Shown here: positions 863 through 50,692 of the stretch, one piece after another
Numbering within the stretch: position 1 is the stretch's first letter
How the letters are laid out: the number at the start of each line of letters is the position of its first letter
DNA from: an uncultured Geobacter sp.
Lineage (GTDB): Bacteria; Desulfobacterota; Desulfuromonadia; Geobacterales; DSM-12255
Reading direction: 5' to 3'
DNA length: 55,635 bases
Assembly (NCBI GenBank): GCA_937860145.1
Contig: CALMBF010000041.1
Coordinates: 1-55,635, forward strand
Notes under the pieces: model-generated
The model's database searches: none
Told to the model about the DNA's origin: nothing
The model's input: the letters and a program-made list of their open reading frames with translations, nothing else
Made by a program: the position numbers and the translations under genes

Positions 863-3364
863 ATGGGGAAGACGGAAATAAAAACCAGTACATGTTACGG
901 ATGTGCGCACACGGCCTGTTTCGTGAAGGCGCACATCGAGGACGGGAAATTGGTGAAGGTGACGCCCGATCCGGAAAAGATCTGCATCGACAACTGTCCG
1001 CGCGGATTTCTGGCGCAGGACGGCAAGGCAAGCATCGAGTACCACTACGGAGAGAAACGGATCAACTATCCTTTGAAGCGAGCCGGTAAGCGGGGTGAAA
1101 ACAAGTGGGAGCGGATCTCGTGGGATCAGGCGCTGGACGAGATCGCCGCGAAGCTTCAGGGGCTTAAAGACAATTACGGCCCACATTGCGTCTGTTCGGC
1201 AACCGGTACCGCCCATCACTCCGACAACAACTGGGTGCCCTGGCGTTGGATGGTCGGCTTCGGGACCGTCAACAAGATCGGCAACGAGCAGATCTGCTAT
1301 GGCGCCCAGTTCATCACCTCCGAACATACCTTCGGCTGGACCGCAAGTCCGTTCCCCGATCCCAACACCCCCCCCCAGGCGGCCGTCCTCGTCGGCAATG
1401 CCCATGAGACGGTACCGCAGCTCTACAATGCCCTCAAAGAGGGGTCGAAGTTCGGTCTGAAGCTGATCGTCGTCGATCCGCGTGCGACAGCGCCGGTCAA
1501 TTTTGCCGACCAGTGGCTCCAGATACGTCCCGGCACCGACATCGCCCTCTGGCTCTGCTGGATCAAGCTGATCATCGAGAATCAGTGGTACGACAAGGAA
1601 TTTGTAGAAGAGTGGTCGAACTCCCCATTCCTCGTCCGTAGCGACACCGGCAAGATTTTACGGGCGGAGGAACTTGTCGATAACGTTCCCAATGATGCCT
1701 TTGTAGTCTGGAATACCAAGACCGGCGCTCCGTCAATCTGGAATGCCGAAGAGCGTGTTTATCTTGAGGGCGGGGTAGAGAAGGCCCTTGAAGGCGCCTT
1801 CACGGTAAAGCTCAAGGACGGCAGCGAGGTCGAGTGCAAGACCGTGTGGACCAGGCTCATCGAGCGCGTGGACGAGTGGACGCCGGAAAAGGCGTCGGAA
1901 GTGACCAACATCCCGGCCCACAAGATTGTCAGAGCCTGTGAAACCTATGCCACGAACACCCCGAGCATGTTCATGACGCCTGGCCATACCTATGATGCCT
2001 TTGCCCCCGGCTCGTCGAGCGTGTATCGGTGCCGCGACATCATCCGCGCCATTGTGGGGAATATCGACCGCTGCGAGAACCTTACCGGCTGCTACGACAC
2101 GAACAAGCTGGTCAGCATCTACGACATGGAACTACGCCCTGATGAGGCGTTCCCGGAAGAAGAGAAGAAAAAACAGCCCGGATGGGACCGGTTCCGTGCA
2201 CTCACCTTCCAGGGGTTTGATCTTAAGGCCAAGTACGAAAAGAAACAGTGGGGGGTTGCATCCAACGCCATGTACTCAAACCAGGGACACCACCACATCA
2301 TCTGGGGTGACATCATCGATGAGAAGCCTGACCGCACCAGGGCGATAATCGTCAACGGCAGCAACCCGCTGGTCAAGTACAGCAACTCCAAGCGTGTGTT
2401 CGAGGCATTCAAGAAGCTGGATCTGGCGGTCGCCCTCGAATTCACCATGACTCCGACCGCGGTAATGTGCGACTACGTCCTCCCCATGTCCGACTGGTTC
2501 GAGCGCCCCGAGATCGGTCCTTCTACCCCATGCGACATCTTTAATTTCATCCATCTGACCGACGCGGTGATGCCGCCGGAGTTCGAGCGCCGCTCCGATT
2601 ACGACGTGTTCAAGGGGCTCGCAGAGCGGCTTGGCTTCGGCCACGACTGGCAGTGGAAAGACCTTACCGAATGCTACAACTGGCGCGCCCAGGGGCTGCT
2701 CAAGGAGTACGACTGCAAGGATATCGCCGAGTTCGGCGAAAAGGTCGGCTTCGACTACCCGGCGCCAATCATTGAGCAGTACAAGCTGAGAAACGGGTTC
2801 GCGACCCCTACGGCCAAAGCTGAAATCTGGTCGGTGATGCTTGAAGAACTCCGCTATGATCCGCTCCCGGAGTACTTCGAGCCGGCGCTTGGCCCAATTA
2901 ACGAACCGGAGTTGAACGCCGAGTACCCGCTTACTTTGATCGGGATCGACCGGCACCTCCCGAACTACCACTCCCAGTTCTACGAGGTTCCTTCGCTGCG
3001 CAAAATGTGCCCGGAACCGATCATGGACATCCATCCCGACGTTGCCCGCAGGATGGACCCTCCCATCACCGACGGGGACTGGGTCTGGATCGAGACGCGC
3101 AAGGGGCGTATCAGGCAGCGCGCCAGACTCACCTTTGGCATCGACCAGAGCTGCGTCAAGACTATGCACCACTTCTGGTACCCCGAAATGCCCGGCGAGG
3201 AGCCGTACGTCCACGGCTTGTTTATATCCAACACCAACGTGTTGACCGAGGACGATCCCGATCTCTGCGATCCGGTTTTCGGATCCTGGCCGCACACTGC
3301 CCTTCCGTGCAAGGTCTACAAGGTGGTGGAAGGGGCCAATCTGGCGGATGACCGGTCACGATAG
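863..3364 (+). CDS. Mo/W-bis-pterin oxidoreductase, catalytic subunit (DMSO reductase superfamily), first copy
   Basis: 833 residues. The ATG at 863 is preferred over an in-frame ATG at 824 because GAGGAGG lies just upstream of it. Cys11, Cys14, Cys19 and Cys45 (CYGCAHTAC then CPRG) form the N-terminal [4Fe-4S] site of this superfamily. Cys145 in EQICYGAQ sits where the Cys ligand of the metal is found in acetylene hydratase-like members. The C-terminal third has the pterin-dinucleotide-binding domain. There is no twin-arginine signal, so it is probably cytoplasmic. The best general match is to the acetylene hydratase, transhydroxylase and related hydratase/oxidoreductase group; the substrate cannot be read from the sequence. 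A paralogue lies at 8970-11600, with SDR, M24 and E1/E2 genes between them, which suggests consecutive steps on one substrate. No small subunit is adjacent. Confidence 0.85.
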   Translation: MGKTEIKTSTCYGCAHTACFVKAHIEDGKLVKVTPDPEKICIDNCPRGFLAQDGKASIEYHYGEKRINYPLKRAGKRGENKWERISWDQALDEIAAKLQGLKDNYGPHCVCSATGTAHHSDNNWVPWRWMVGFGTVNKIGNEQICYGAQFITSEHTFGWTASPFPDPNTPPQAAVLVGNAHETVPQLYNALKEGSKFGLKLIVVDPRATAPVNFADQWLQIRPGTDIALWLCWIKLIIENQWYDKEFVEEWSNSPFLVRSDTGKILRAEELVDNVPNDAFVVWNTKTGAPSIWNAEERVYLEGGVEKALEGAFTVKLKDGSEVECKTVWTRLIERVDEWTPEKASEVTNIPAHKIVRACETYATNTPSMFMTPGHTYDAFAPGSSSVYRCRDIIRAIVGNIDRCENLTGCYDTNKLVSIYDMELRPDEAFPEEEKKKQPGWDRFRALTFQGFDLKAKYEKKQWGVASNAMYSNQGHHHIIWGDIIDEKPDRTRAIIVNGSNPLVKYSNSKRVFEAFKKLDLAVALEFTMTPTAVMCDYVLPMSDWFERPEIGPSTPCDIFNFIHLTDAVMPPEFERRSDYDVFKGLAERLGFGHDWQWKDLTECYNWRAQGLLKEYDCKDIAEFGEKVGFDYPAPIIEQYKLRNGFATPTAKAEIWSVMLEELRYDPLPEYFEPALGPINEPELNAEYPLTLIGIDRHLPNYHSQFYEVPSLRKMCPEPIMDIHPDVARRMDPPITDGDWVWIETRKGRIRQRARLTFGIDQSCVKTMHHFWYPEMPGEEPYVHGLFISNTNVLTEDDPDLCDPVFGSWPHTALPCKVYKVVEGANLADDRSR

Positions 3365-3431
3365 GGGGGCCGGCGCAAGCGGCGAGCAAGAAGAGTTTAC
3401 GTAATTTACAGCAACCATAAAGGAGATAGTC

Positions 3432-4313
3432 ATGTCAGAAGATCTGAAGATTACCGACAAGAAACTCGTAGGAAAAACCGCAATCATCACCGGAGCCTCC
3501 CGCGGCATGGGGAGGGCCGCCGCGATCCTCTTCGGGGCTCATGGCGCCGAGGTCGTGGTCAATTACCAGAAGGACAAGGAAGCCGCGGATCATGTGGTGG
3601 AAAAGATCAAGGAACTCGGCGGCAAGGCCATTGCCGTCAAGGCAGACGTCGGCAAGCTCTCCGACCTCCAGGGGCTGATCGACGCGTGCATCAAGGAGTT
3701 CGGGAAGCTGGACATCCTCTATCACAACGCTGCCATCCACTGGGTTGCCGGCGAGTTGGACGACGTGACCGAGGAGGTTTGGGATGTCACCTACAACAGC
3801 ATCATCAAGGGACCGTTCTTCCTGACCAAGCTTGCGATCCCGCATCTGCAAAAGTCGAAGGGTGCGATCATCTTCACTTCCACCAGCTCAGCGGGCACCG
3901 CCACCCCGACGGACCCCCACTACATGACCGCCAAAAATGCGGTCAACGCCCTGTACCGCATCCTGGCGGGCTGGCTCGCCCCTGAGGTCCGTGTCAACTG
4001 CGTCGTTCCCGGTTTCGTCATGACCGACATGTTCCGTCACCATCCGCCGGAGATGTGGGAATTCCTGGCCGGTACTGTGCCGATGCACCGGATGGCGACT
4101 CCGATGGATGTGGCCAATGCCGCACTGTATCTTGCCTCCGACGATGCTTCCTACGTGACCGGCGTCTCCATTGAAGTAGACGGTGGCCGCTCTTCGGCGA
4201 TTCCGAGGCGCAACATCCTTCCGGCCCTCCAGGCGATGAAGCCCGGACTCGACCATTACGACAAGAGCACCTACGGCGATGCTGCAATCAAGACAATGGA
4301 CGTGGGGCTGTAG
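3432..4313 (+). CDS. Short-chain dehydrogenase/reductase (SDR)
   Basis: 293 residues, preceded by AAAGGAG. Classical SDR features are all visible: cofactor motif TGASRGMG (20-27), NAA (99-101), catalytic Ser in STSS (about 150-153), and Tyr164 with Lys168 (YMTAK). The end has a VDGGR-type C-terminal motif plus an extra tail of about 40 residues. It most likely oxidises a secondary alcohol to a ketone (or the reverse) with NAD(P) in the cytoplasm. It sits between the first Mo/W enzyme and the M24-like gene, so a hydroxylated cyclic intermediate is a plausible substrate; this is inference. Family assignment is firm, substrate unknown. Confidence 0.88.
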   Translation: MSEDLKITDKKLVGKTAIITGASRGMGRAAAILFGAHGAEVVVNYQKDKEAADHVVEKIKELGGKAIAVKADVGKLSDLQGLIDACIKEFGKLDILYHNAAIHWVAGELDDVTEEVWDVTYNSIIKGPFFLTKLAIPHLQKSKGAIIFTSTSSAGTATPTDPHYMTAKNAVNALYRILAGWLAPEVRVNCVVPGFVMTDMFRHHPPEMWEFLAGTVPMHRMATPMDVANAALYLASDDASYVTGVSIEVDGGRSSAIPRRNILPALQAMKPGLDHYDKSTYGDAAIKTMDVGL

Positions 4314-4326
4314 GGTGACATAACCT

Positions 4327-4356
4327 CCGGCTCCCGTCGTCAGTGACGGGAGCCGG
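4327..4356 (+). other. Perfect 12-bp intercistronic hairpin
   Basis: CCGGCTCCCGTC and GACGGGAGCCGG pair perfectly around a 6-base loop, between the SDR and the M24-like gene. There is no T-run after it, so it is more likely an RNA-processing or stability hairpin that sets relative expression within the operon than a full terminator. Confidence 0.55.
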
Positions 4357-4387
4357 GAGAATATACGACGGTGAAGGGGGCGTTCCG

Positions 4388-5608
4388 ATGACTCTCGGTA
4401 TTAATGCAACGGATATTGAACTCCGCGTCGATTTCGACGCGATGCGGGCATACAAGCTGGACAGGATCCAAAAACAGCTGGTGGAGAAGAACCTAGGGGC
4501 GATGATCTGCTTCGACCCCGATAACATCCGCTACGCCACCTCCACCGCCCTCGGCGACTGGAGCCGGGACAAGTATGTCCGGTGGACGGTCATTCCCAGG
4601 GGAGGCAAGCCGGTCCTTTTCGAGGTTGGCTCAGCGGCTGAAGTGAAAAAGGAACTTTGTCCCTGGCTCGAACGGGAGAACATACAGCCCGGCGGAGGCT
4701 GGCTGCGCGGCGCCAACCACCCGGTCGGGAACAAGTTCATGCTGGGAGCGACCGTAACCAAGATTCAGCAGGTGCTGGCTGACAACAAGGTGGAGAAGGA
4801 AGCAATCGGTATCGACACCGTGGACCTCTACATCCTGGATGCCCTCAAGGAGAAGGGGCTCAACATCGTCAACGGCTGGGACGTCATGTGGGATGCCAGG
4901 GTCATCAAATCTCCGGACGAGCTGAAGCTGATCGAAATATCCGCCTCGCTGGCCGACGGCTGTTGGGAGTACATCGTCGACTTCATCAGGCCCGGCGTCA
5001 GAGAGTCCGAGATTGTCGCGGAGATCTACGGCTGGATGCTAAGCCACGGTGCCGACCGGATGACCGGGGTGAACTGCGTCTCCGGCCCGAGAAGCAATCC
5101 CCATCCCCACGATTGTTCTGATCGGATGATCCGCCCTGGTGAACTGGTCTATATAGACATCATGAGCCATTATCTCGGCTACGGCACCTGTTATTACCGC
5201 ACCTTCGCCACTACCCGGGCTACCCAGAAGCAGAAGGACCTTTACAAAACGGCCTACGATTGGCTACAGCGCTCCATCGAGGTGGTCAAGCCGGGTATCA
5301 CCACTTCCGACATTGCCAACAAGTGGCCTTCCGCCCAGGAGTTGGGCTTCCCGAACGAGATGGCTGCAGCAGGACTGTGCATCGGTCATGGCATTGGCCT
5401 CAGCATCCACGAGAAGCCGTTCATCACCAGGGCGCTCATCGACTGCCCGTCGCAGATAGAGACCGGGATGCATTTCGCATTGGAGACCTATTGCGGCGAC
5501 GGTGCCGACGGGGCCAGGATCGAATCGCAGATCATCGTTACCGAAACCGGTCACAAGGTGATCACTACCTGGCCCTGCGAAGAATTGATGGTCTGTGCGC
5601 CGAGGTAG
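4388..5608 (+). CDS. M24-fold (creatinase/prolidase-like) protein with an altered metal site
   Basis: 406 residues from the ATG at 4388, which follows GAAGGGGGCG; an in-frame ATG at 4343 lacks such a site. An N-terminal creatinase-like domain (about 1-160) is followed by the pita-bread catalytic domain. Metal ligands expected of M24 peptidases are Asp257 (YIDIM), His334 (GHGIG), Glu366 (ALET) and Glu379 (RIES), with His341 (SIHEKP) also conserved. The second ligand, normally Asp eleven residues after the first, is Cys268 (GTCYYRTF). M24 proteins include non-peptidases such as creatinase and DMSP lyase DddP. Placement inside a degradation operon between an SDR and a thiamine-diphosphate complex suggests a small-molecule C-C or C-N cleaving or hydrolytic role and not proteolysis. 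Confidence 0.8.
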   Translation: MTLGINATDIELRVDFDAMRAYKLDRIQKQLVEKNLGAMICFDPDNIRYATSTALGDWSRDKYVRWTVIPRGGKPVLFEVGSAAEVKKELCPWLERENIQPGGGWLRGANHPVGNKFMLGATVTKIQQVLADNKVEKEAIGIDTVDLYILDALKEKGLNIVNGWDVMWDARVIKSPDELKLIEISASLADGCWEYIVDFIRPGVRESEIVAEIYGWMLSHGADRMTGVNCVSGPRSNPHPHDCSDRMIRPGELVYIDIMSHYLGYGTCYYRTFATTRATQKQKDLYKTAYDWLQRSIEVVKPGITTSDIANKWPSAQELGFPNEMAAAGLCIGHGIGLSIHEKPFITRALIDCPSQIETGMHFALETYCGDGADGARIESQIIVTETGHKVITTWPCEELMVCAPR

Positions 5609-5634
5609 GCACTACTCGACTGAGGGAGAATGGG

Positions 5635-6615
5635 ATGAAAAAACTGAGCAAGCAGGATTTGTTGCATCTATACCGCAGCCTGATACGGACGAGGAAGTTC
5701 GATCAGCTCAACATCAGGCTCGCCGCTGAAGGGAAGCTTTTGACCTTTTACCACAGCGCCCATGGTCATGAGGCGGTCGGCACCGGCGCCGCCGCCGTGG
5801 TACGCGATGATGACTATCTCTTCATCCATCACCGCGGCCACGGACTTCCCTACAGCATCGTTAGGGGAATAGACCCTAAGAGCTGTGTCGCCGAGCATAT
5901 GGGGAAATCAACCGGATGGGGAGGGGGAATTACCGGTTTCCACGCTGTAGATAAGGAGATGGGCATTCTCTCTTCCGCAGGCACCATCGGGTCCGGATTC
6001 GTCCTCAGTGCCGGGTATGGTCTGGCCGCCAAGAAGAATGGAAGGGGCCAGATCGCAATCTGTTTTTCCGGCGATGGCGGGGTCCAGCGCGGGCAGTTCC
6101 ATGAGGCGATCAATCTATGCGCGGCATGGAAGCTTCCGGTGGTTTTCGTGGTCGAGAACAACGGCATGGCCTGGTTCACCCCCAACCGCGACACCACTGC
6201 GGTGGAGAATGTGGCCGACCTGGCCAAGGCGTACAAGGTCCCGGCAGAGATCGTGGATGGCATGGATATCCTGGCGGTCTATCGCGCCACGGAAAAGGCT
6301 GTCGAGCTGGCTAGAAACGGCGGCGGACCCTCGCTCATCGAATGCAAGACCTTCCGCTACCGGTCCCACTCCGAGGGACGACCCGACGTAAGCCATTTTG
6401 AGCCGAGAAGCAAGGAGGAGATCGCGGCCTGGATGGAACGGGATCCGATCAAGCTGTTCGAGGAAAAACTCGTCAAGGACAAGGTGCTGACCGCCACATT
6501 GATCGAAACGATTGCCAGGGAGGCGGACGAAGAGGCGGTTGCCGCAGAGAAGTTCTCCTTCGATAGTCCTTTCCCTGATCCTGCTAGACTGCCGCATATG
6601 GTCTATGCCCCCTGA
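5635..6615 (+). CDS. 2-oxoacid/acetoin dehydrogenase-type E1 component, alpha subunit
   Basis: 326 residues; ATG at 5635 after a GAGGGAG-like site. The thiamine-diphosphate and Mg binding motif starts with GDG at 146-148 and ends with NN at 175-176, the usual spacing. HRGHG (about 66-70) is the conserved alpha-subunit histidine region. Sequence type is closest to acetoin or branched 2-oxoacid dehydrogenase E1-alpha, the size class that works with a separate beta subunit. With the next two genes it forms an oxidative C-C cleaving complex producing an acyl-CoA. Complexes of this kind have been linked to hydroxybenzoquinone cleavage in anaerobic resorcinol degradation (from memory), which fits an operon with Mo enzymes. 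Confidence 0.88.
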   Translation: MKKLSKQDLLHLYRSLIRTRKFDQLNIRLAAEGKLLTFYHSAHGHEAVGTGAAAVVRDDDYLFIHHRGHGLPYSIVRGIDPKSCVAEHMGKSTGWGGGITGFHAVDKEMGILSSAGTIGSGFVLSAGYGLAAKKNGRGQIAICFSGDGGVQRGQFHEAINLCAAWKLPVVFVVENNGMAWFTPNRDTTAVENVADLAKAYKVPAEIVDGMDILAVYRATEKAVELARNGGGPSLIECKTFRYRSHSEGRPDVSHFEPRSKEEIAAWMERDPIKLFEEKLVKDKVLTATLIETIAREADEEAVAAEKFSFDSPFPDPARLPHMVYAP

Positions 6616-6627
6616 ATGGAGCGCTAA

Positions 6628-7593
6628 ATGAAAGAACTAATGTATTGGAACGCCATATCCGAGGCTATTGCCGAGGAGATGGCCAGGGACGATAAGGTCT
6701 TTGTCATCGGTGAGAATGTCCAGGAGAGCCCTTTTCTCGCTACCAAGGGGCTGGTTCAAAAGTTCGGCAGCGACCGGGTGATGGACGCGCCGCTCAGCGA
6801 GCTTGCCATAGCCGGTGCCACTGTTGGTGCTGCCATGGCAGGGTACCGCCCGGTGTGTGACCTGACCTTTGCCGACTTCATCTATTGCGCAGCTGACGAA
6901 GTGCTTATGAAAGCGGCACAGCAATACTTCATCCACAACGGGGAAGTGGGCGTGCCGTGCGTCTTCATGGGGGTAGCCGGCGGCGGATTTGGCAACGGTC
7001 CGGAACACTCACGGATTCCGGCCGCCATGGTCATGCACAACCCGGGGTTGAAGCTCGTACTTCCTAGCAACCCCTACGATGCCAAGGGTCTCATGAAGGC
7101 CGCGATCAGGGACAACAATCCGGTATGTTTTTTCTTCCACAAGAAGTGCATGCCGATGAAACAGGAAATTCCTGACGAGGAGTACATCATCCCGCTCGGG
7201 AAGGCGGAGATAAAAAGAGCAGGCACGGATGTGACGGTGGTGGCAACCTCGTACATGGTCAACCTGGCACTGGAGGCTGCCAAACAGCTGGAAGGGAAGG
7301 TCAGCTCGGAGATCATCGACCCGAGGACGCTGGTGCCGTTGGATATCGACACCATCATCGAGTCGGTCAAGAAGACCAACCGGGTGGTAATCATCGATGA
7401 GGATACGGAGTGCTGCGGCGTGGCGGCGGAGATCGCCCAGCAGATCATTGAGCGGGCTTTCGACTATCTCGATGCCCCGGTCAGTCGGCTTTGCGCAGCC
7501 AACTCACCGATAGCGGGAGCCGCCATGGAGAAATACGTAATTCCCCAGTTGCCGCAGGTGATCAAGGCGATCGAGACGGCTGCGGGGCTGTAG
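6628..7593 (+). CDS. 2-oxoacid/acetoin dehydrogenase-type E1 component, beta subunit
   Basis: 321 residues, starting 12 bases after the alpha gene with GGAG upstream. It shows the transketolase pyrimidine-binding domain with the conserved Glu region (VIGENVQES) and the C-terminal transketolase domain (DPRTLVPLDIDTI). Length and layout match E1-beta of acetoin/pyruvate-type complexes, which supply the second half of the thiamine-diphosphate site. It is translated with the alpha subunit and should form an alpha2-beta2 heterotetramer docking onto the E2 encoded next. Confidence 0.9.
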   Translation: MKELMYWNAISEAIAEEMARDDKVFVIGENVQESPFLATKGLVQKFGSDRVMDAPLSELAIAGATVGAAMAGYRPVCDLTFADFIYCAADEVLMKAAQQYFIHNGEVGVPCVFMGVAGGGFGNGPEHSRIPAAMVMHNPGLKLVLPSNPYDAKGLMKAAIRDNNPVCFFFHKKCMPMKQEIPDEEYIIPLGKAEIKRAGTDVTVVATSYMVNLALEAAKQLEGKVSSEIIDPRTLVPLDIDTIIESVKKTNRVVIIDEDTECCGVAAEIAQQIIERAFDYLDAPVSRLCAANSPIAGAAMEKYVIPQLPQVIKAIETAAGL

Positions 7594-7627
7594 TTATTCC
7601 TGATTTACGATTGTTGCGAGGGAAACA

Positions 7628-8923
7628 ATGATAACCAAACTTTTCATCCCCAAATTGGGAATGACCATGGAGAAAGCAACCATTGCCGAGTGGCGCTACC
7701 GGCATGGCGACCGGGTTGAGAAGGACGCACCGGTGCTGGTGATCGACACCGAAAAGGTTGCCAATGAAATCGAAGCCCCTACGGCGGGGAGACTTGTGAT
7801 TGTTGCTTCGGTGGGAGAGGAACTCCCCTGTGGCGCTGTAGTCGGCTACATCGCGGAAACCGAGGAAGCATTCGCCCAGGCCGAAAAAGGGGGAGTACCG
7901 GCGACACAGTCAGCTGATGCAGTAACGACTGCCATTGAAACTGGTGAGCCGACCCCTCCGCTGGTCGCGCGGGAAGAATTGCCGGAATGCGCGTTAGGGG
8001 AACGGTTGAAGATATCCCCACTGGCGCGCCGGTTGGCGAAAGAGCAGGGGATCGATCCCAAGGGCATTACCGGCAGCGGTCCGGGGGGGCGCATCGTCAG
8101 GAAGGACATCGAGGCCGCCGGGAAAGATGCCACCGCTAACACGGTGACAGCCGCGGCAGCGCCGATGGTTCCGGTAGCCAGCAGCGGACATGCGGCGGTA
8201 GGTGGCAAGCGAACCAAGGAAGTTGTCCCGCTGAAGGGTATACGAAAGGTCATCTCGGACCACATGCAGCTCAGTCACAGCGTCTCCGCCCCGGTCTCGG
8301 TAATCTCCGAAATCGACATGACCGAGGTGATCGCCCTGCGCGAGCGGATCAACTCCAAGGTGGCACCGCTGGGTGGGCCGAGCATTACCTTCACCGACAT
8401 CTTCGTCATGGCGGCAGCCAAGTCCCTAAAAAGGACCCCCATCCTGAACTCCAGTCTTATCGGGAATGAGATACTTATATGGGAGGAGGTTAACATCGGG
8501 TTCGCCGTGTCGATCCAGATGGAGGACGGCAAGAACGCGCTGGTGGTGCCGGTAATCCACAACGCCGACCGGCTCTCGCTTCTGGAGATCAGCACGCGAC
8601 GCAAGGATCTGACGGACCGGGCCCGTACCGGGCGGCTCGCCATCGACGAAACCGCCGGGGGGACTTTCACCATCACCAATACCGGTACCTTCGGACCCTG
8701 GTGGCACGTTCAGACTCCGATCATCAACCAGCCGGAGGCAGCAATACTCGGAACCGCCAGCATCGTGGACCGGCCGGCGGTGGTTGACGGTTCCATCGTC
8801 ATCAGGCCGATCATGCCGGTTTCGCTCACCTTCGATCACCGGATCATGGACGGCGCGCCGCCGGCCCAATTTCTGAACTATTTGAACGAGATGCTGGCCG
8901 ATCCGCAGATGATGCTGGTTTGA
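7628..8923 (+). CDS. Dihydrolipoamide acyltransferase E2 component
   Basis: 431 residues, with one N-terminal lipoyl domain (lipoylated Lys43 in DTEKVANE), an Ala/Pro/Gly-rich linker, a peripheral subunit-binding domain (about 127-163, ISPLARRLAKEQG) and the catalytic acyltransferase domain ending in HRIMDG (His404, Asp408). It transfers the acyl group made by E1 to CoA. No dihydrolipoamide dehydrogenase (E3) is in the window, so E3 must come from elsewhere. Lipoate could be supplied by the fused LipB-LipA at 47460-48974. What acyl group it carries is unknown. Confidence 0.9.
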   Translation: MITKLFIPKLGMTMEKATIAEWRYRHGDRVEKDAPVLVIDTEKVANEIEAPTAGRLVIVASVGEELPCGAVVGYIAETEEAFAQAEKGGVPATQSADAVTTAIETGEPTPPLVAREELPECALGERLKISPLARRLAKEQGIDPKGITGSGPGGRIVRKDIEAAGKDATANTVTAAAAPMVPVASSGHAAVGGKRTKEVVPLKGIRKVISDHMQLSHSVSAPVSVISEIDMTEVIALRERINSKVAPLGGPSITFTDIFVMAAAKSLKRTPILNSSLIGNEILIWEEVNIGFAVSIQMEDGKNALVVPVIHNADRLSLLEISTRRKDLTDRARTGRLAIDETAGGTFTITNTGTFGPWWHVQTPIINQPEAAILGTASIVDRPAVVDGSIVIRPIMPVSLTFDHRIMDGAPPAQFLNYLNEMLADPQMMLV

Positions 8924-8969
8924 GTTACCTGGCCGACTGGAAGAAATTACATTCAAAGGAGCTGCTCAT

Positions 8970-11600
8970 ATGGAAGAAAATCAGATGATGGAAGATGAGT
9001 TCATATTTAACGGGCATGTCGATGATGACGGAGTCAAATGGGTCAAGTCCCGCTGCTTCTTCTGTCACTCGCATTGCAGCATGCTGATAGGGTCGAAAGA
9101 TGGCGTGATCGTCAAGATGAAGCCGAATGCAGCCGACTTCTCTTCCAGCATGTGTGAGCGGATCGGAGAGAACGGCGAACGGGCCATCAAGTTCCATTAC
9201 CATCCGAAAAGGATCAACCACGCTCTGAAGAGGGTCGGCGAGCGGGGTGAGGACAAGTGGGAGCAGATCCCCTACGAACAGGCTCTGGACGAGATCGCAG
9301 CCAAACTATCCCAGCTCAAGGAAAAGTACGGTCCCGAGACCCTTACTGCGATCGAGGGGACTTACCGTTCCGACCACCTCTGGGCCCGCAGCCGCTTTAC
9401 CAATCTGTGGGGGAATCCGGGCAATATCGCCGATCCGGGAACCATCTGCTGGTGTGCTCTGTACGCAATCAACATGGCAATGTGCGGTTTTACCACGGAA
9501 ACGGCCTTCAACCACACGATTTCACAGTCAAAAACCATAGTCATCTGGGGGACACGGCTTACCGAGCGTTACAGTCCCAAAAGCTGGGTGACCAAGATCC
9601 TGAGGGATGCCTATGAACATCCGTACGAGGAGCGCCCCAACCTGATCGTCATTGACCCGGTGATGATCGATCCGGTTCGCCATGCCGACATGTACCTGCA
9701 GATCCGCCCCGGAACCGACCTGGCGTTGATGCTGGGGTGGTGCAACGTCATCCTCAACGAAGGTGTTTACGACAGGGATTTCCTCACAAACTGGTCAAAT
9801 GGCCCGTTCCTCATTCGCATGGATAAGGGGGTTCTGCTTAGGGAAACAGATCTGATTTCGACTGGCAACAGGGAGAACTTCGTCGGGTGGGATGAATCGT
9901 CTCAAAAACCTGCCATCTGGCTTTCCAGCCAGAACCGCTACCGTGACGACGGGGTGAAAAATGCTCTAGAAGGGGAGTACGAAGTTACCCTTGCCGACGG
10001 TTCCAAGGTCACCTGCCGGACCTCCTTCGCTCTCATCAAGGAAAAGATTGACGAATACCCGCCGGAATACGTTTCGGACATCACCGGCATTCCGGTTGAC
10101 AAGATTCGCAAGTCGGCGCTGATGTATGCGACCCAGGGGCCGAGCACCATCGGCTGGGGCGTCGCGGTCGATCAGCAGGGGTGGAACGCTACCTATGCCG
10201 GAATGGCCAAGATGCTGCTCCGCTCGTTTACCAACAATCTTGACATCAACGGTGGCGACTACATTCCCGAACCGGGACCGGTCATCAACGGAAACTTCCC
10301 CGTCCGCGACTGCGAGCTGGAACTGGCTGAAAAAGTTTCTCCCGAGGCACGCAAGAAGCTGGTCGGTGGCGACGTCCACAGGTTCATGGGATGGGAAGGT
10401 TTCGAACTCCTCGACAAACCGTACCGGGAGATGTGGGACATCCCCAGACCTCAGGTGCACCAGCTTCTGTCGTCCGCACCGATGATCTGGCGGGCCATGC
10501 TTCACAGCGATCCGTACCCGGTCAAAGCAGCAATCTGCTGGTCGGGTAATCCGATGATGTGGTCCCCCAACTCCAAGCTGGTGAACAAGGCACTCAGGAG
10601 CCTGGATCTTCTTGTAGTCCTGGAATATTTCAAAACGCCTACTGCAGCTTTGGCGGATTACATTTTGCCGGCTGCCGACTGGATGGAACGGCCTCTCTGC
10701 TCAACCGTGGAAGATTCGGCAGATATCTATCTTGGCGGCGACAGGGCGGTTCAGCCCCATGCTGACCGGCGGATGGACTATGACTTCTTCCGCGCGCTCG
10801 GCCTGCGTCTCGGACAGGAGAATGACTGGCCTTGGGAAACCTATGAAGAGGTCATTGCCCACAGGCTGGAGAGGGTCGGCATCAGTTATGAGGAGTTCTG
10901 CGAGACCGGTTTCCTCCCTCCCAACGTGCAGGAGAAAAAGCATGAAATGATCCGGGAGAAGGATGGCCAGATACGCGGCTTCGCGACAGCCTCGCGCAGA
11001 CTCGAAATCTATCCCAGTGCTTTTGAAGAGCTTGGTTACAATCCGATCCCTTATTATCGCGAGCCGGCAGAGTCTCCATTCAGTACGCCGGAACTTGCGA
11101 AAGAGTATCCCATCATCCTGACAACGGGTGGTCGCTGGTCGCCGATGTTCCACTCGGAGCATCGGGTGCCGGGGACCGGCACCAGGGAGATGTTCCCCTG
11201 GCCGATCTTCCAGATCCACCTGGAAACCGCCCGTGAGTTGGGAATAGCCGATGGTGACTGGTGCTGGCTCGAATCTCCGCGCGGGAGGGTCAAGCAGAGA
11301 GCACGAATCGGCTTCGACGTCGCCCCGGGAACGATTATCGCCCAACCGAGCTGGTGGTTCCCTGAGCAGCCTGCAGAGGACCCCTGGCAGTGCGGCGCCT
11401 GGGAATCCAACATCAATGTCCTTACCAACGATGACCCGGCTACTCTCGATGAGATGTGCGGCAACTGGACCAATCGCGGGCTCCTTTGCAAGGTGTATCG
11501 CTGCGAGGAGATAGAGCGAATTTCGGACAGAGTCTCCCAGGATCTGTTCATTGAAGGAAGGTCAGGATATCCAGGAGTATCTGGCATCACTAACCGGTAA
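8970..11600 (+). CDS. Mo/W-bis-pterin oxidoreductase, catalytic subunit, second copy
   Basis: 876 residues; AAAGGAG is followed after eight bases by the ATG. The [4Fe-4S] cysteines are Cys29, Cys32, Cys36 and Cys62 (CFFCHSHC then MCERIG). Cys160 in GTICWCALYA is the likely metal ligand, with a further Cys two residues on. It shares domain order and many blocks with the 863-3364 product (for example RING-free stretches DEIAAKL and QIRPGTD), so the two are paralogues, but it has a longer N-terminus and different active-site surroundings. A small 2x[4Fe-4S] ferredoxin gene follows within 70 bases and may be its electron partner. Superfamily is certain; reaction is unknown. Confidence 0.85.
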   Translation: MEENQMMEDEFIFNGHVDDDGVKWVKSRCFFCHSHCSMLIGSKDGVIVKMKPNAADFSSSMCERIGENGERAIKFHYHPKRINHALKRVGERGEDKWEQIPYEQALDEIAAKLSQLKEKYGPETLTAIEGTYRSDHLWARSRFTNLWGNPGNIADPGTICWCALYAINMAMCGFTTETAFNHTISQSKTIVIWGTRLTERYSPKSWVTKILRDAYEHPYEERPNLIVIDPVMIDPVRHADMYLQIRPGTDLALMLGWCNVILNEGVYDRDFLTNWSNGPFLIRMDKGVLLRETDLISTGNRENFVGWDESSQKPAIWLSSQNRYRDDGVKNALEGEYEVTLADGSKVTCRTSFALIKEKIDEYPPEYVSDITGIPVDKIRKSALMYATQGPSTIGWGVAVDQQGWNATYAGMAKMLLRSFTNNLDINGGDYIPEPGPVINGNFPVRDCELELAEKVSPEARKKLVGGDVHRFMGWEGFELLDKPYREMWDIPRPQVHQLLSSAPMIWRAMLHSDPYPVKAAICWSGNPMMWSPNSKLVNKALRSLDLLVVLEYFKTPTAALADYILPAADWMERPLCSTVEDSADIYLGGDRAVQPHADRRMDYDFFRALGLRLGQENDWPWETYEEVIAHRLERVGISYEEFCETGFLPPNVQEKKHEMIREKDGQIRGFATASRRLEIYPSAFEELGYNPIPYYREPAESPFSTPELAKEYPIILTTGGRWSPMFHSEHRVPGTGTREMFPWPIFQIHLETARELGIADGDWCWLESPRGRVKQRARIGFDVAPGTIIAQPSWWFPEQPAEDPWQCGAWESNINVLTNDDPATLDEMCGNWTNRGLLCKVYRCEEIERISDRVSQDLFIEGRSGYPGVSGITNR

Positions 11601-11666
11601 TTAGACTGGCAGAGGGCAGGCATGTCCTGTCCTCTGCAACCAGTTCGCTGGAGCAGCAGAGGCAAT

Positions 11667-11963
11667 ATGAGCCACGGAATCAGGCCAACTGGTCATAAGG
11701 TACGTATCAAGCAGGCAAAGTGCGTGCACTGCGGCAAATGTTTGCATGTTTGCCCGAGAAAAAATTTTAAGAAGTCGACTGATGCGAAAGTCGAGGTAGT
11801 GGATAACAGCAACTGTAATGGATGCACTAAATGCCGGGATGCCTGTCTGACAAAAGCTATCGTTATAGCTGCGGAGCCATTGCAAAGATACGAATATGCG
11901 CGAAGTTTCCGTGATGGTAACAATTGCACGGTTAAATCTAAAATTAACGAAAAAGGAGATTAA
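11667..11963 (+). CDS. Ferredoxin-like protein with two [4Fe-4S] sites
   Basis: 98 residues if translation begins at the ATG at 11667, which has AGAGG six bases upstream; an in-frame ATG at 11622 would add 15 residues with no iron-sulfur content. Two complete CxxCxxCxxxC motifs are visible (CVHCGKCLHVCP and CNGCTKCRDAC). It most likely carries electrons to or from the preceding Mo/W enzyme. It is more AT-rich than its neighbours and ends only two bases before the SCP-2 gene. Confidence 0.8.
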   Translation: MSHGIRPTGHKVRIKQAKCVHCGKCLHVCPRKNFKKSTDAKVEVVDNSNCNGCTKCRDACLTKAIVIAAEPLQRYEYARSFRDGNNCTVKSKINEKGD

Positions 11964-11965: not shown

Positions 11966-12292
11966 ATGGCCTACACCTCAGTGAAGGAAACAATCGAAAA
12001 AATGCCGGTCGTCTTCGATGCCAATGCAGCCAAAGATTTAAATGCCGTATTCCAGTTCAACCTCACTGGAGATGATGGCGGTCAGTGGAACCTGACCGTA
12101 AAGGACGGTACTTGTGATCTTCAGGAGGGTACACACGCCGCTCCCACGGTAACCCTTACCTTGGCCGGTACGACATGGCTTTCCATTGTCAACAAGAAGA
12201 TGAATGCAATGCAGGCGAGCATGAGCGGCAGGTTGAAAACCGTCGGCAGTATGCTGGTTGCGCAGAAAATACCGACCGTCTTCCCGTTGTAG
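11966..12292 (+). CDS. SCP-2 sterol-carrier-like protein
   Basis: 108 residues with a strong AAAGGAG site. The pattern FQFNLTGDDGGQWNLTVKDG then TVTLTLAGTTWLSIV and SGRLKTVGSM is typical of stand-alone SCP-2 domains, which bind acyl-CoAs or hydrophobic molecules in a tunnel. In this cluster it may hold a hydrophobic substrate or CoA thioester for the enzymes encoded around it. It is probably co-translated with the ferredoxin. Confidence 0.8.
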   Translation: MAYTSVKETIEKMPVVFDANAAKDLNAVFQFNLTGDDGGQWNLTVKDGTCDLQEGTHAAPTVTLTLAGTTWLSIVNKKMNAMQASMSGRLKTVGSMLVAQKIPTVFPL

Positions 12293-12397: not shown

Positions 12398-13114
12398 ATG
12401 ACTACCGACAAAGAGATGCGGTATCGACTGAACATCATAGATGAAGCCATGTCCTTGGTCACGCTGTTGTTCGAGTCTGACAGGAAAATGAACCTTACCG
12501 AGCTGACACTTGCGAGCGGCATGACGAAAAACAAAACGTTCCGTTTGCTTGCAACGATGGAACAGCAAGGAATGCTCGATAAGGACAAGCAGGGAAGATA
12601 CTACTTAGGCATGAACACATTTATCGCTGCGCGGAATGCCTTGTCCCGCATCGATATTCCAGACGTCTTCCCGGTTCTCGAAAACGTTGCGTTGCAGTTG
12701 AATGAAGATGTGTATTTTGCACGTAAAACGACGGGGCTGCCACTGTTAGTGTCGGTCGCCAATTCCCGTCAGCAGGTCACAGTACGATCGTGTATCGGTT
12801 GTGTACTGCGTGACCAGGGAAGCGAAAATACTTGGGAACTTGTTAGGGTATCGGTGGGAGCGTTGGATCCTGAAATTACCACCGTTGCAATTGATGTTCC
12901 CGCATTCGGTGAGAACGAGCACTGCGCACTAGTTGTTGTGGCGCCGACCTTCAGAATGTCGCAGGAGCGTATCAGGTCGGATGTTATTCCCGTTTTACAT
13001 GAAACAGTACGCAAGATGGGGCACTTGCATGCCGAGTCAGGGCGATGGGTGCACCCTCCGGCAGTACAAGTTGCGCCAAGAGGGATCAGCGAAGGACTAT
13101 TCAGGGTGGCCTAA
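12398..13114 (+). CDS. IclR-family transcriptional regulator
   Basis: 238 residues. An N-terminal winged helix-turn-helix (about 30-65, LTELTLASGMTKNKTFRLLATMEQ region) is followed by an IclR effector-binding domain, here somewhat divergent. IclR proteins commonly regulate aromatic or fatty-acid catabolic operons in response to a pathway intermediate. Located mid-cluster and co-directional, it is the only regulator inside the degradation block and a candidate for binding the inverted repeats upstream of P1. A CCGGT/ACCGG dyad lies at 12325-12337 in its own upstream gap. Confidence 0.82.
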   Translation: MTTDKEMRYRLNIIDEAMSLVTLLFESDRKMNLTELTLASGMTKNKTFRLLATMEQQGMLDKDKQGRYYLGMNTFIAARNALSRIDIPDVFPVLENVALQLNEDVYFARKTTGLPLLVSVANSRQQVTVRSCIGCVLRDQGSENTWELVRVSVGALDPEITTVAIDVPAFGENEHCALVVVAPTFRMSQERIRSDVIPVLHETVRKMGHLHAESGRWVHPPAVQVAPRGISEGLFRVA

Positions 13115-13197: not shown

Positions 13198-14366
<1,169 letters not shown>

Positions 14367-14370
<4 letters not shown>

Positions 14371-15236
14371 GCATACTCATCGACAAGAACACGAAAGTCA
14401 TCACCCAGGGGCTCGGGGCCACCGGCCTCTTCCATGCCCAGGGAGCGAGGGAATACGGCACGCAAATGGTCGGCGGGGTCACCCCCGGCAAAGGTGGGAC
14501 CACTATCGACGGCTTCACCGTCTACAACACCGTAAGCGAAGCCGTCCATCACACCGGCGCGCAGGCAAGCGTCATCTACGTCCCCCCCCCATTTGCCGCC
14601 GACTCCATCATGGAAGCAGTCGACGCCGGCCTCGACCTCGTCATCTGCATCACCGAAGGGATTCCCGTCCTCGACATGGTCAAGGTCAAGCAGTACATGA
14701 CGGGTAAAAAGACCCGGCTCGTCGGCCCCAACTGCCCTGGGGTCATCACACCCGGTCAGTGCAAGATCGGCATCATGCCGGGGTACATCCACAAACCGGG
14801 CAAGGTCGGGGTCGTCTCCCGAAGCGGTACCCTCACCTACGAAGCGGTCTGGCAGCTCACCAATGTGGGAATGGGGCAGTCCACCTGCGTCGGCATCGGG
14901 GGCGACCCGGTCAACGGCACCAGCCACCTGGACTGTCTGCAGATGTTCGAAGAAGACCCTGACACCGAGGCGGTCATCATGATCGGCGAGATCGGCGGCA
15001 ACGCCGAAGAAGAAGCCGCCCGGTTCGTCAAAGAGAACATGACCAAGCCCGTTGCCGCCTACATCGCCGGGGTCACTGCCCCCCCGGGGAAAAGGATGGG
15101 GCATGCGGGAGCGATCATCTCCGGCGGCAAAGGGACCGCGGCGGAGAAGGTTGCCGTGCTGGAGGAATGCGGCATTGCCGTTGCCCAGAGCCCGGCCGAC
15201 ATGGCCCAGGCGCTGATGCGGGTGTACCGGCCGTAG
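14367..15236 (+). CDS. sucD: Succinyl-CoA synthetase, alpha subunit
   Basis: 289 residues from a GTG start that overlaps the sucC stop by four bases (GTGA), a sign of coupled translation. The CoA-binding Rossmann domain begins with TQGLGATG, the phosphorylated histidine is His246 in [12 protein letters not shown] (same number as in the E. coli enzyme), and SRSGTLTYE is present. Full-length and intact. Confidence 0.93.
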
Positions 15237-15567: not shown

Positions 15568-16380
15568 ATGCTTGTCATATCATGTATCAAACAGGTCCCA
15601 GATACGACCCAGGTCAAGATCGACCCGGTCACCAATACCCTGATCCGGGACGGGATTCCGTTCATCATCAACCCATATGACGCCCATGCCTTAGAAGAGA
15701 GCCTGCGTTTGAAGGACCGCTACAGGGTGCGTACCGTAGCCCTCTCCATGGGGCCGCCAAACACCGTGTCGACCCTGCGCAAGGCCTGTGCTCTCGGCGT
15801 CGACGAGGCGATCTTACTCTCCGACCGATGCTTCGGGGGAGCAGATACCTTGGCTACCAGCAAGGTTCTTTCTGCTGCCATCGAGCGCCTGGCACAGAAG
15901 GAAGAGGTCGGTATCGTCTTCTGCGGCAAACAGACCATTGATGGCGATACCGCCCAGGTCGGCCCCGGTATCGCGTCGCGGCTCGGCTTCAGCCAGTTAA
16001 CCCTGGTGGATCGGATCGAATCAGTCGACCTGGTACGCAAAAGGATAAAAGTACGACGGAAGCTTGAGGGGCGTCATGAGATCGTAGAAGCGCCCCTGCC
16101 GGTTATGATCACCGTGGTGCGGGAGCTGAACCGACCCCGGTATCCGGTGGTTGCAATGCGTCTTGCCGCAGAAGATAAGGAGATCAAGGTCTGGGATAAC
16201 TCGATCCTCAAACTAGACGTGGAAACCGTTGGTCTGAAGGGATCGCCAACCTGGGTCAGTAAGATATTCTCCCCCCAGCGCGATCAGGGGGAGATTATCG
16301 GCGATGGTTTGGGTGATCCGGATGGAACCGCAGGGTTGCTTCTGGAGAAACTATTGGCAAAGGAACTGTTGGCCCTGTGA
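15568..16380 (+). CDS. etfB: Electron-transfer flavoprotein, beta subunit (first pair)
   Basis: 270 residues; RBS AGGGAGC about ten bases upstream. ETF-beta features include CIKQVPDT at the start, NPYDAHALEESL, and the FCGKQTIDGDTAQVGP nucleotide-binding region. It pairs with the iron-sulfur-extended EtfA at 16436-17782 and accepts electrons from acyl-CoA dehydrogenase-type enzymes, passing them to the membrane oxidoreductase encoded next. A second etfBA pair lies at 28029-29779. Confidence 0.92.
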   Translation: MLVISCIKQVPDTTQVKIDPVTNTLIRDGIPFIINPYDAHALEESLRLKDRYRVRTVALSMGPPNTVSTLRKACALGVDEAILLSDRCFGGADTLATSKVLSAAIERLAQKEEVGIVFCGKQTIDGDTAQVGPGIASRLGFSQLTLVDRIESVDLVRKRIKVRRKLEGRHEIVEAPLPVMITVVRELNRPRYPVVAMRLAAEDKEIKVWDNSILKLDVETVGLKGSPTWVSKIFSPQRDQGEIIGDGLGDPDGTAGLLLEKLLAKELLAL

Positions 16381-16394
16381 GTAAGGCAAGGGTT

Positions 16395-16424
16395 TTGTTA
16401 GTCACGTGCACTTTTCACTAACAA
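16395..16424 (+). promoter_or_regulatory. Inverted repeat next to the etfA ribosome-binding site
   Basis: TTGTTAGT and ACTAACAA (8-bp perfect arms, 14-base loop) end immediately before the AGAGG site of the ferredoxin-ETF alpha gene. A hairpin here could modulate translation or mark an RNA cleavage point. Confidence 0.35.
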
Positions 16425-16435
16425 GAGGTTAACAA

Positions 16436-17782
16436 ATGGCAGGAATGAAGAATCCAATCAAAAAACCTCGCGGCAAAGCAAAGCTTCTCGAGGGTAAATG
16501 CATCGCCTGCGGCGCCCGTTGCCAGAGCTCCTGCCCGGTCAACTGCATCGACATGACTGACAGCGGTGAGCCGGTGGTCGAAGCCGCCAAATGCATCGGC
16601 TGCCTGAAGTGCATCAAGGTCTGCCCGGCGCAGGCGCTTGAGATCTTCTTTACCCCCGAGGAGCAGCAGATACTTGACGAACTGGCCCGCCAGTCGGGGG
16701 GGGCTGTCGAAGAAGAGCCGGACGAAGAGACGCAAAAGCTGCAGCAGCTGCTGGCAAGCTACCAAGGCGTCTGGGTCGTCATCGAACAGTTCGAAGGTAT
16801 TGTCGCCAAGGTCTCCTGGGAACTTCTCGGGGCCGGAGCCGGACTGGCCAGAAGCCTCGGCGCAGAGTTGAGCGCAGTCATCCTCGGCCAGGGGATCGAG
16901 CACATCTGCAACGAAGCATTCGAGCATGGCGCCGATCAAGCGATCATCCTCGATGCGCCAGTTTACCGGCACTACCGGACCCAGTCCTACACCGAAGCCA
17001 TTTGTCACCTGATAGAAAAGTACAGGCCGGAAATTATCCTTATGGGAGCCACCGCCCAGGGTCGTGACCTGGCCGGAGCAGTGGCAACCGTCGTCGGGAC
17101 TGGCCTAACCGCTGACTGTACCGGCCTGGGGATTGACGACAAGCGAAACCTCATGCAGACCCGCCCCGCATTCGGCGGCAACATAATGGCCACCATCATG
17201 TGCGACAAGTTCCGCCCGCAGATGGCAACTGTAAGGCCCCACGTCATGCAGATGCCGGAATTCCAGCCTGGCCGTAAAGGCGAGATCATCCGCGACAGCT
17301 TCGCTCCGCTGGAAGAGAATATCCTCGTCAAAGTGCTGGAGGTCTTGAGTGATCGCGATGGCAAGGACCAGGTTGATGTGGCTGCCGCCGAAGTCATCGT
17401 TTCCGGCGGACGGGGCCTGATGAACAAGGAAAACTTCTCACTGTTGCAGGAGTTGGCCGACGAACTGGGCGGAGTGGTAGGGGCCTCGAGAAGTGCCGTG
17501 GATGCCGGCTGGATATCTCACAGCCGCCAGGTGGGCCAGACCGGCAAGACTGTCCGCCCCAAGATCTATATCGCCTGTGGCATCTCCGGAGCGATCCAGC
17601 ACATGGTGGGGATGCAGGACTCGGATGTCATCATCGCCATCAACCGCGATCCGGAAGCACCGATATTTCAGGTTGCCACCTACGGTATCGTCGGAGACCT
17701 TTTCCAGGTCGTACCGTCGCTTATTCGCCGGGTACGTAATCTAAAGGGGCTCGACATCGACCGGCAGAGAAATGTCGCTTGA
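16436..17782 (+). CDS. etfA: Electron-transfer flavoprotein, alpha subunit with N-terminal ferredoxin domain
   Basis: 448 residues, longer than the usual 310-340 because of an N-terminal domain (about 20-75) with two four-cysteine motifs: CIACGARCQSSCP, which has one extra residue in the first spacing, and the canonical CIGCLKCIKVCP. The C-terminal part has the FAD-binding segment (RQVGQTGKTVRPKIYIACG, ISGAIQHMVGM). Such extended EtfA proteins occur in anaerobes including Geobacter relatives, where the clusters probably carry electrons to the membrane EMO-type oxidoreductase or a ferredoxin. The neighbouring EMO gene starts only 34 bases downstream. Confidence 0.92.
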   Translation: MAGMKNPIKKPRGKAKLLEGKCIACGARCQSSCPVNCIDMTDSGEPVVEAAKCIGCLKCIKVCPAQALEIFFTPEEQQILDELARQSGGAVEEEPDEETQKLQQLLASYQGVWVVIEQFEGIVAKVSWELLGAGAGLARSLGAELSAVILGQGIEHICNEAFEHGADQAIILDAPVYRHYRTQSYTEAICHLIEKYRPEIILMGATAQGRDLAGAVATVVGTGLTADCTGLGIDDKRNLMQTRPAFGGNIMATIMCDKFRPQMATVRPHVMQMPEFQPGRKGEIIRDSFAPLEENILVKVLEVLSDRDGKDQVDVAAAEVIVSGGRGLMNKENFSLLQELADELGGVVGASRSAVDAGWISHSRQVGQTGKTVRPKIYIACGISGAIQHMVGMQDSDVIIAINRDPEAPIFQVATYGIVGDLFQVVPSLIRRVRNLKGLDIDRQRNVA

Positions 17783-17816
17783 TCTATACATACTTGCAAT
17801 TCGCAACGAGGTAGTC

Positions 17817-19802: not shown

Positions 19803-19881
19803 CTGCTACCGTAATACAGAAGATATATGCCTTAGAAGAAAAATGCAGCCACCGAAAAAGAGTCTGCTTTAAGGAGTATCG

Positions 19882-20280
19882 ATGGCTCAAACCTTTCGCA
19901 CAGAAATTGAAGTTAGATTTTCCGATTTCGATCTCTATGGGCATGTGAACAGTGTGCTTTATTTCAATTATTGTGAAACCGCACGCATCAAGCTTCTAAA
20001 GGATGTGCTGAAGGAGCTGGCCGACAGCCAAATTCATATAGTGGTAGCCCATGCCGAATGCGATTACGCAGTACCTATACTGTTCGGTGAGAAACTGATG
20101 ATCGAGACCCATGCTTCCAGAATAGGGAATGCCAGTTTCGATCTTGAATACCGCCTGAGCGATGGCGACCGGAAAACTTATGCAGTTGCCCGCACCACCA
20201 TGGTTTGTTGCGACAATATCTGGAAGACAGTGGTTCCGGTGCCGGAGATAGTGAGAAATATCCTAGATTGGGCTGAATGA
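19882..20280 (+). CDS. Hot-dog fold acyl-CoA thioesterase (4-hydroxybenzoyl-CoA thioesterase type)
   Basis: 132 residues with AAGGAG upstream. VRFSDFDLYGHVNSVLYFNYCE is the diagnostic 4HBT signature with the catalytic Asp and the GHVN turn (split here: FSDFDLYGHV, then NSVLYF). It hydrolyses an acyl-CoA or aryl-CoA and probably relieves CoA sequestration or releases a product of the pathway. It sits between the EMO gene and the beta-oxidation genes. Confidence 0.85.
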   Translation: MAQTFRTEIEVRFSDFDLYGHVNSVLYFNYCETARIKLLKDVLKELADSQIHIVVAHAECDYAVPILFGEKLMIETHASRIGNASFDLEYRLSDGDRKTYAVARTTMVCCDNIWKTVVPVPEIVRNILDWAE

Positions 20281-20338
20281 AAAAGCGGCTTACTGTAGGT
20301 GAAACGTTGAAGAAGGAAATACAGGACACGGAGGAGTT

Positions 20339-22705: not shown

Positions 22706-22721
22706 AAGGTTGGAACAGTTA

Positions 22722-22801
22722 AAACCAATCCCCCTCGATCCCCCCTTGTCAGGGGGGAAGCCTTTGAGCCTCCCCTGACAAGGGGAGGTTTAGAGGGGTT
22801 T
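22722..22801. repeat. Intergenic inverted-repeat element
   Basis: Two arms, each containing CCCCTTGTCAGGGG or its complement, lie between the hydroxyacyl-CoA dehydrogenase and thiolase genes, with AAACC and GGTTT-type ends. The layout (CCCCCTCGATCCCCCC on one side, GGGGAGGTTTAGAGGGG on the other) is typical of short dispersed palindromic elements found in many copies in large genomes. It probably folds into a strong hairpin in the mRNA. Confidence 0.65.
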
Positions 22802-22859
22802 GATGCTAAGGACGACTGACCCCAATCGGATAATCAAATTGGAACTGGAGGATATCATA

Positions 22860-24032: not shown

Positions 24033-24098
24033 CTGGCGCAAGTCCCAATCAGGAACAGTGATCACCTGGAAGGCTACTCAGACAAGGAGAGTGAAAAA

Positions 24099-25901: not shown

Positions 25902-25924
25902 AACGCTGACAGGGAGTCAGGCAT

Positions 25925-27997: not shown

Positions 27998-28028
27998 TCG
28001 AAAAAAACAATCTCATTGGGAGGATATT

Positions 28029-34603: not shown

Positions 34604-34623
34604 GGGATAGGAGGTTACCAATT

Positions 34624-35979: not shown

Positions 35980-35988
35980 AACAGCACA

Positions 35989-36023
35989 CTCGCCCCTGGA
36001 TCTGTCGGAAGGTCAGGGGCGAG
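35989..36023 (+). other. Perfect 10-bp hairpin within the transport operon
   Basis: CTCGCCCCTG and CAGGGGCGAG flank a 15-base loop just after the DUF1329 stop. There is no T-run, so it is likely a stability or attenuation hairpin that lowers expression of the downstream genes. Confidence 0.5.
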
Positions 36024-36070
36024 TTGTAGGCATCCCGAGCTAACTTCGAGCGTCACAAGGAGATTAGATA

Positions 36071-37171: not shown

Positions 37172-37199
37172 ATCAAGAAATACAGATTGGAGAACTGCG

Positions 37200-43514: not shown

Positions 43515-43519
43515 GAGTG

Positions 43520-44287: not shown

Positions 44288-44291
44288 CGGC

Positions 44292-50583: not shown

Positions 50584-50692
50584 TCGTTCCCTCTATGGGT
50601 TGGGTTTCTTAATATTAGCTCTTTAGCTTTAAATAGTTTTTTGTTAAGTGGGCTAATTGCCTGAAGCCTCTTTGGCTCTATGTAGTTTTAGT

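Follow-up and report, generated by a model that had tools for sequence, protein, structure and literature searches.

A gene block joining two acetylene-hydratase-like Mo/W proteins to a divergent thiamine/lipoate complex: a candidate for oxygen-independent breakdown of apolar compounds

Introduction

Few ways are known by which greasy compounds can be attacked without oxygen. The hydroxyhydroquinone pathway, which opens phenolic rings, uses two large molybdenum (Mo) subunits. Resorcinol hydroxylase (RhL) and transhydroxylase (PgtL), two Mo enzymes, are listed as having a Ser metal ligand (PMC10100899). Among characterised enzymes, acetylene hydratase has its nearest relatives in the gut catechol dehydroxylases (PMC7028382). 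For apolar compounds, the AmeABCD proteins of Castellaniella defragrans are tied to monoterpenes and act as an exporter (PMC6394551). A similar 'Nanopod' cluster was highly detected in a methanogenic benzene degrader (PMC13101534). Here, we describe a gene block at positions 863-11963 of a 55,635-nucleotide contig from an uncultured Geobacter sp. (CALMBF010000041.1; hereafter the window). The block is a testable candidate for another means of oxygen-free attack. It would combine two uncharacterised molybdenum/tungsten (Mo/W) enzymes, a private lipoate-dependent complex for C-C cleavage and a repurposed peptidase fold.

Results

Eight co-directional genes form an operon

The block consists of eight tightly packed genes on the plus strand, separated by gaps of 12-74 bp from the first Mo/W gene through the second. 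The first gene, MoA (863-3364), encodes an acetylene-hydratase-like MopB protein of 833 amino acids (aa), with a CYGCAHTAC [4Fe-4S] motif and a Cys ligand in the sequence EQICYG. Its best start is the ATG at 863; the mechanical open reading frame (ORF) opens at TTG 824. There follow an SDR-family dehydrogenase (3432-4313; 293 aa), in which the YxxxK motif is intact by reading, and an M24 pita-bread-fold protein (4388-5608; 406 aa), the frame of which is also open from GTG 4343. The next three genes encode E1alpha (5632-6615), E1beta (6628-7593) and E2 (7628-8923) of an atypical complex of the 2-oxoacid/acetoin dehydrogenase type. MoB (8970-11600) is a second acetylene-hydratase-like MopB protein, of 876 aa, with a CFFCHSHC motif and a Cys ligand in the sequence TICWC. 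Thus, the two Mo/W enzymes reported in an initial annotation to bracket SDR, M24-like and E1/E2 genes are all present, co-directional and closely spaced with the genes between them.

That annotation also stated that there was no dedicated small subunit. We found no DmsB/NrfC-type subunit after MoB, and to this extent the statement stands. It must be amended in that a two-cluster (8Fe-type, 2[4Fe-4S]) ferredoxin-like protein of 113 aa is encoded there instead (11622-11963). This ferredoxin has relatives in three of the genomes described below (G029, G096 and G479) and is a possible electron partner of MoB or MoA. Scans for promoters and terminators gave no signals above those of shuffled sequence.

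The gene order is conserved and sparsely distributed

The order MoA-SDR-M24-E1alpha-E1beta-E2 is kept in six genomes from at least two orders of Desulfobacterota, always with MoB adjacent. Besides the genome of the window (G000), these are Geomonas azotofigens Red51 (G029, locus L029), a Desulfuromonadaceae metagenome-assembled genome (MAG; G096, L031), a groundwater MAG (G479, L030), Desulfosarcina cetonica (G478, L032) and MAG G215 (L070). G. azotofigens Red51 and D. cetonica are the two cultured carriers. The published description of G. azotofigens records no utilisation of phenol, toluene, benzaldehyde or benzyl alcohol (PMC8516083), which makes these low-ranking candidates for the substrate. 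Because the order recurs in five further genomes, at 43-97% protein identity, chance is excluded and the operon is real. In D. cetonica, MoB lies in divergent orientation beside MoA and is split into two overlapping ORFs (L032 6801-9412), by a frameshift or a draft-assembly error. In G215, MoB is cut by the contig end.

Few genomes carry the cluster. A search with MoB, together with its MoA matches, placed it in 3 of 141 Geobacterales genomes, and a search with MoA placed it in 2 of 389 genomes from the order of D. cetonica. MoA of the window is 97% identical to that of G. azotofigens, from a different family, and 79% identical to that of the groundwater MAG; the corresponding values for RpoB are 85% and 63%. 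Because MoA is more alike across families than RpoB, these identities point to movement of the block by horizontal transfer, among anaerobes of soils and sediments. A search of plasmids for relatives returned only matches of 27-34%.

MoA and MoB are distinct from acetylene hydratases and Ser-ligated hydroxylases

MoA and MoB are homologous (~36% identity), and the best solved-structure match of both is acetylene hydratase (PDB 2e7z). In two trees, built without RhL, BtdhL, BqdLMS or catechol dehydroxylase sequences, each protein formed its own clade with 100/100 support, outside the true acetylene hydratases. A single clade of MoA plus MoB was not rejected (p-AU 0.55), and the two may have arisen by a duplication within the block. 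The metal-ligand Cys of both proteins aligns with that of acetylene hydratase. Conversely, the position of residue Asp13 is occupied by Ala in MoA and by His in MoB; in the alignment, Asp was kept by three true acetylene hydratases only. We rejected membership of the acetylene hydratases on the absence of Asp13, and membership of the Ser-ligated resorcinol hydroxylases and transhydroxylases on the Cys ligand. Among the sequences compared, neither protein falls in a characterised clade that would have undercut the proposal of a distinct route. An AlphaFold model of MoA had a pLDDT of 31.6 and was set aside.

The structural match raises the idea that the cluster hydrates acetylene, or another simple alkyne or alkene, to feed an acetaldehyde- or acetoin-type route. 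With Asp13 replaced in both proteins, and both outside the acetylene hydratase clade, we regard this as very unlikely. A reductive use is less improbable, though still doubtful. Here, MoA and MoB would remove hydroxyl groups in the manner of catechol dehydroxylases, E1/E2 would act as a side-chain or 2-oxoacid dehydrogenase, and the operon would open no ring. The nearness of the catechol dehydroxylases to acetylene hydratase (PMC7028382), in the group that holds MoA and MoB, is in keeping with such a role, as is the ferredoxin that follows MoB. Hydroxyl removal, however, leaves the adjoining SDR and lipoate complex unexplained.

Other acetylene-hydratase-like genes were seen nearby and in relatives. 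Contig C133 of the same genome, which may continue the window, carries a second Mo module (L040 608-8998) encoding MBL, a 697-aa MopB protein, a DmsB-like protein, a membrane protein, a radical SAM protein and an 882-aa MopB protein. Four of the other genomes (G029, G096, G478 and G479) have the module close to their cluster. We did not count it as core, because Geobacterales that lack the cluster also have relatives of its Mo proteins. In other Desulfuromonadia, acetylene-hydratase-like genes occur in pairs with 6-23 kb between the members (L041, L043, L045 and L047; loci of G525, G506, G515 and G552). Four of the loci, from Geobacterales, were read; there, the second such gene follows a gene for 436-444 aa, which stands where L040 has the radical SAM gene.

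E1/E2 is the third such complex of the genome

The thiamine pyrophosphate (TPP)-binding E1 and the lipoyl E2 with its acyltransferase domain have the features of 2-oxoacid/acetoin dehydrogenase complexes. E2 has one lipoyl domain, an E3-binding domain and a catalytic domain; by reading, the lipoyl-Lys and DHRxxDG motif are intact, as is the GDG...N motif of E1. The E1 catalytic residues are kept. No curated family cut-off for pyruvate, branched-chain or 2-oxoglutarate dehydrogenase proper was reached: E1alpha scored 252.6 bits against 393.9, E1beta 312 against 321 and 301 against 454, and E2 283 against 449. The E1 signatures, including RGHGxPY and HSEGRPD in E1alpha, are common to the six clusters and confined to them among the sequences compared.

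Membership of the pyruvate/branched-chain dehydrogenase superfamily could mean that E1/E2 is a housekeeping 2-oxoacid dehydrogenase and that the genes around it are unrelated. Two further E1beta genes, 41% and 36% identical to that of the cluster and each with an adjoining E2 gene, are already present in the genome. The six-gene order is moreover kept across orders, in a rare and patchy distribution. We therefore consider a housekeeping role extremely improbable. The proposed joining of Mo/W enzymes to a TPP/lipoate complex is borne out, and the complex is the third, divergent one of its genome, in an apparently catabolic operon.

The M24 protein has an altered metal site

The M24 protein matches the pita-bread fold. 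The five-ligand set of M24 metallopeptidases (Asp, Asp, His, Glu, Glu) is incomplete. Four ligands are kept and the second Asp is Cys (in the sequence TCYYRT), both in the six clusters and in several more distant relatives. The best curated model is DddP, at 118 bits against a 600-bit cut-off. In all six genomes, the M24 gene is paired with the SDR gene. Contig C230 of G215 (L071 4570-6741, 14426-18953) carries another SDR-M24 pair, 74% and 70% identical, together with a HyuA/HyuB-type pair (ketone carboxylase/oxoprolinase family) and a MaoC-like protein. A further genome (G334, contig C197; L073 10066-14925) has an E1alpha-E1beta-M24-E2 group with no adjoining Mo gene. Because the SDR-M24 pair of C230 likewise occurs without Mo genes, the SDR, M24 and E1/E2 proteins seem to work as partners.

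Downstream genes include a set resembling AmeABCD

Plus-strand genes continue downstream with an SCP2 sterol-carrier-like protein (11966-12292), an IclR-type regulator (12398-13114) and a SucC/SucD-type ADP-forming CoA ligase pair (13198-15236). The last runs counter to the earlier description of a route with no CoA ligase: a succinate-CoA-ligase pair follows in this genome and in G. azotofigens. Genes for beta-oxidation and electron transfer occupy 15568-29779 and comprise two EtfBA pairs, two FeS oxidoreductases, a thioesterase, a HAD/ECH fusion, a thiolase and an acyl-CoA dehydrogenase. Among relatives, SCP2, IclR, SucCD and the beta-oxidation genes are syntenic in G. azotofigens only.

A FadL/TodX outer-membrane channel (30127-31434) precedes an AmeABCD-like set of DUF1302, DUF1329, YCF48/BNR and MMPL (RND) proteins (32879-39698). 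Next are a xanthine-oxidase-family Mo hydroxylase (FeS, Mo and FAD subunits) with XdhC/YqeB-type maturation genes (39695-46500), and a fusion of LipB and LipA (47460-48974), for lipoate attachment and synthesis, which presumably serves E2. Five of the six genomes have the fusion close to the cluster, the DUF1302-to-MMPL set shares its contig in four (the window, G029, G096 and G479), and the xanthine-oxidase-type catalytic subunits occur in three (the window, G029 and G096); the contigs are finite, and absence of any of these from a relative is weak evidence. The AmeABCD-like genes agree with the earlier suggestion of a hydrophobic substrate. The same genes had been described as being for uptake, which does not fit their resemblance to an exporter (PMC6394551). 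At E 1e-60, neither G000 nor G029 has any other copy of the MMPL protein.

Two further groups were noted towards the end of the window. A Gp49-like toxin-type gene adjoins an HTH_37 gene at 50218-51058, a possible toxin-antitoxin pair. On the minus strand, at 51491-53377 and outside the island, DUF6527, ThiF-domain and Multi_ubiq genes form a bacterial ubiquitin-like set.

Discussion

AmeABCD-like genes occur together with a beta-oxidation operon and a lipoate complex that is complete. Hence, the reading we prefer, with confidence a little short of even, is a catabolic cluster that spreads horizontally and breaks down an apolar compound without oxygen; TPP/lipoate-dependent C-C cleavage would yield an acyl-CoA. 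We also count in its favour the gene order of six genomes, the greater identity of MoA than RpoB, the LipB-LipA fusion of five genomes, the cluster-specific E1 signatures, the other E1beta copies and the lack of Asp13.

From the observed gene set, conservation and motifs, we infer a substrate class, an order of steps, a direction for the Mo/W reactions and possible ring opening. MoA, MoB or both would alter the oxygen content of the substrate, by water addition, hydroxylation or dehydroxylation; if this is a redox reaction, the small ferredoxin may carry the electrons. The SDR would then oxidise an alcohol to a ketone, and the M24-fold protein, with its Cys-altered metal site, would perform a hydrolytic or eliminating step. 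Finally, E1/E2, lipoylated by the nearby LipBA and working with a housekeeping E3, would cut an alpha-hydroxyketone or diketone between its oxygenated carbons, and the acyl-CoA would enter beta-oxidation. With a cyclic substrate, this cut would open the ring.

Several points weigh against the apolar-compound reading. The substrate of E1/E2 could be an ordinary 2-oxoacid, the reactions of MoA and MoB could be reductive, and the M24 step is without chemical precedent here. Because SCP2, IclR, SucCD and the beta-oxidation genes are syntenic in G. azotofigens only, the route downstream may not be the same in every host. Some hosts have many AmeABCD-like genes, and the link to apolar compounds is weaker there, as in G096 with its ten MMPL matches.

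Alternatively, the cluster might serve a hydroxyhydroquinone-type phenolic pathway of the kind found in Azoarcus anaerobius and in Thauera aromatica AR-1, acting for example on a lipophilic alkylresorcinol. One Mo enzyme would hydroxylate the ring, the other would oxidise the trihydroxybenzene to hydroxyquinone, and E1/E2 would open it. The overall combination of two Mo enzymes with E1alpha, E1beta and E2 matches the one reported by Darley et al. (2007), and the atypical nature of E1/E2 would suit this role. However, MoA and MoB are Cys-ligated where resorcinol hydroxylase and transhydroxylase are Ser-ligated (PMC10100899), DmsB-type small subunits are absent at the cluster and the AmeABCD-like set suggests apolar compounds. 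Taken together, these observations make a phenolic pathway unlikely. Two large Mo subunits had been taken as a mark of difference from the hydroxyhydroquinone route, which also uses two. An SDR or M24 protein is not known to have a role in that route.

A bolder form of the apolar-compound reading is a new oxygen-independent route for alicyclic or terpenoid compounds. Cys-ligated Mo/W enzymes, neither acetylene hydratases nor transhydroxylases, would add oxygen, the TPP/lipoate complex would open the ring directly to an acyl-CoA, and the metal-altered M24 protein would be a new kind of catabolic enzyme. We think this rather unlikely as a whole. In the open-access literature searched we found neither a matching pathway nor an account of such a gene set, in agreement with the view of the route as possibly undescribed; this is no proof that a description does not exist. 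Among candidates considered, the text on ketone degradation by D. cetonica (PMC7888143) contains no molybdopterin, acetoin or M24 terms. The benzene 'Magic' cluster (PMC13101534) and a limonene enrichment (PMC12583861) involve different enzymes.

Comparison with known systems

Acetylene hydratase of Pelobacter (Syntrophotalea) acetylenica resembles MoA and MoB in its MopB family sequence, Cys ligand, [4Fe-4S] motif and lack of a dedicated small subunit. It differs in having Asp13, in falling in a separate clade and in its length (730 aa, against 833-876 aa here). The gut catechol dehydroxylases of Eggerthella and Gordonibacter are the closest characterised relatives of that enzyme; to our knowledge, no lipoate complex accompanies them. 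The resorcinol/hydroxyhydroquinone pathway of Azoarcus anaerobius (RhLS, BtdhLS, BqdLMS) shares the use of Mo enzymes with E1alpha, E1beta and E2 for oxygen-free ring opening. It differs in the Ser ligand of RhL (PMC10100899); the present locus has no small subunits, has an SDR and an M24 protein in addition, and lies alongside genes for apolar compounds. The dimethylsulfoniopropionate lyase DddP and the prolidases share the pita-bread fold and the retained Asp, His, Glu and Glu with our M24 protein, in which Cys replaces the second metal Asp. The AmeABCD and 'Nanopod' clusters have in common with the window the DUF1329, YCF48/BNR-type and RND/MMPL proteins and, where Ame is concerned, DUF1302, whereas the catabolic enzymes beside them are of other kinds than those found here.

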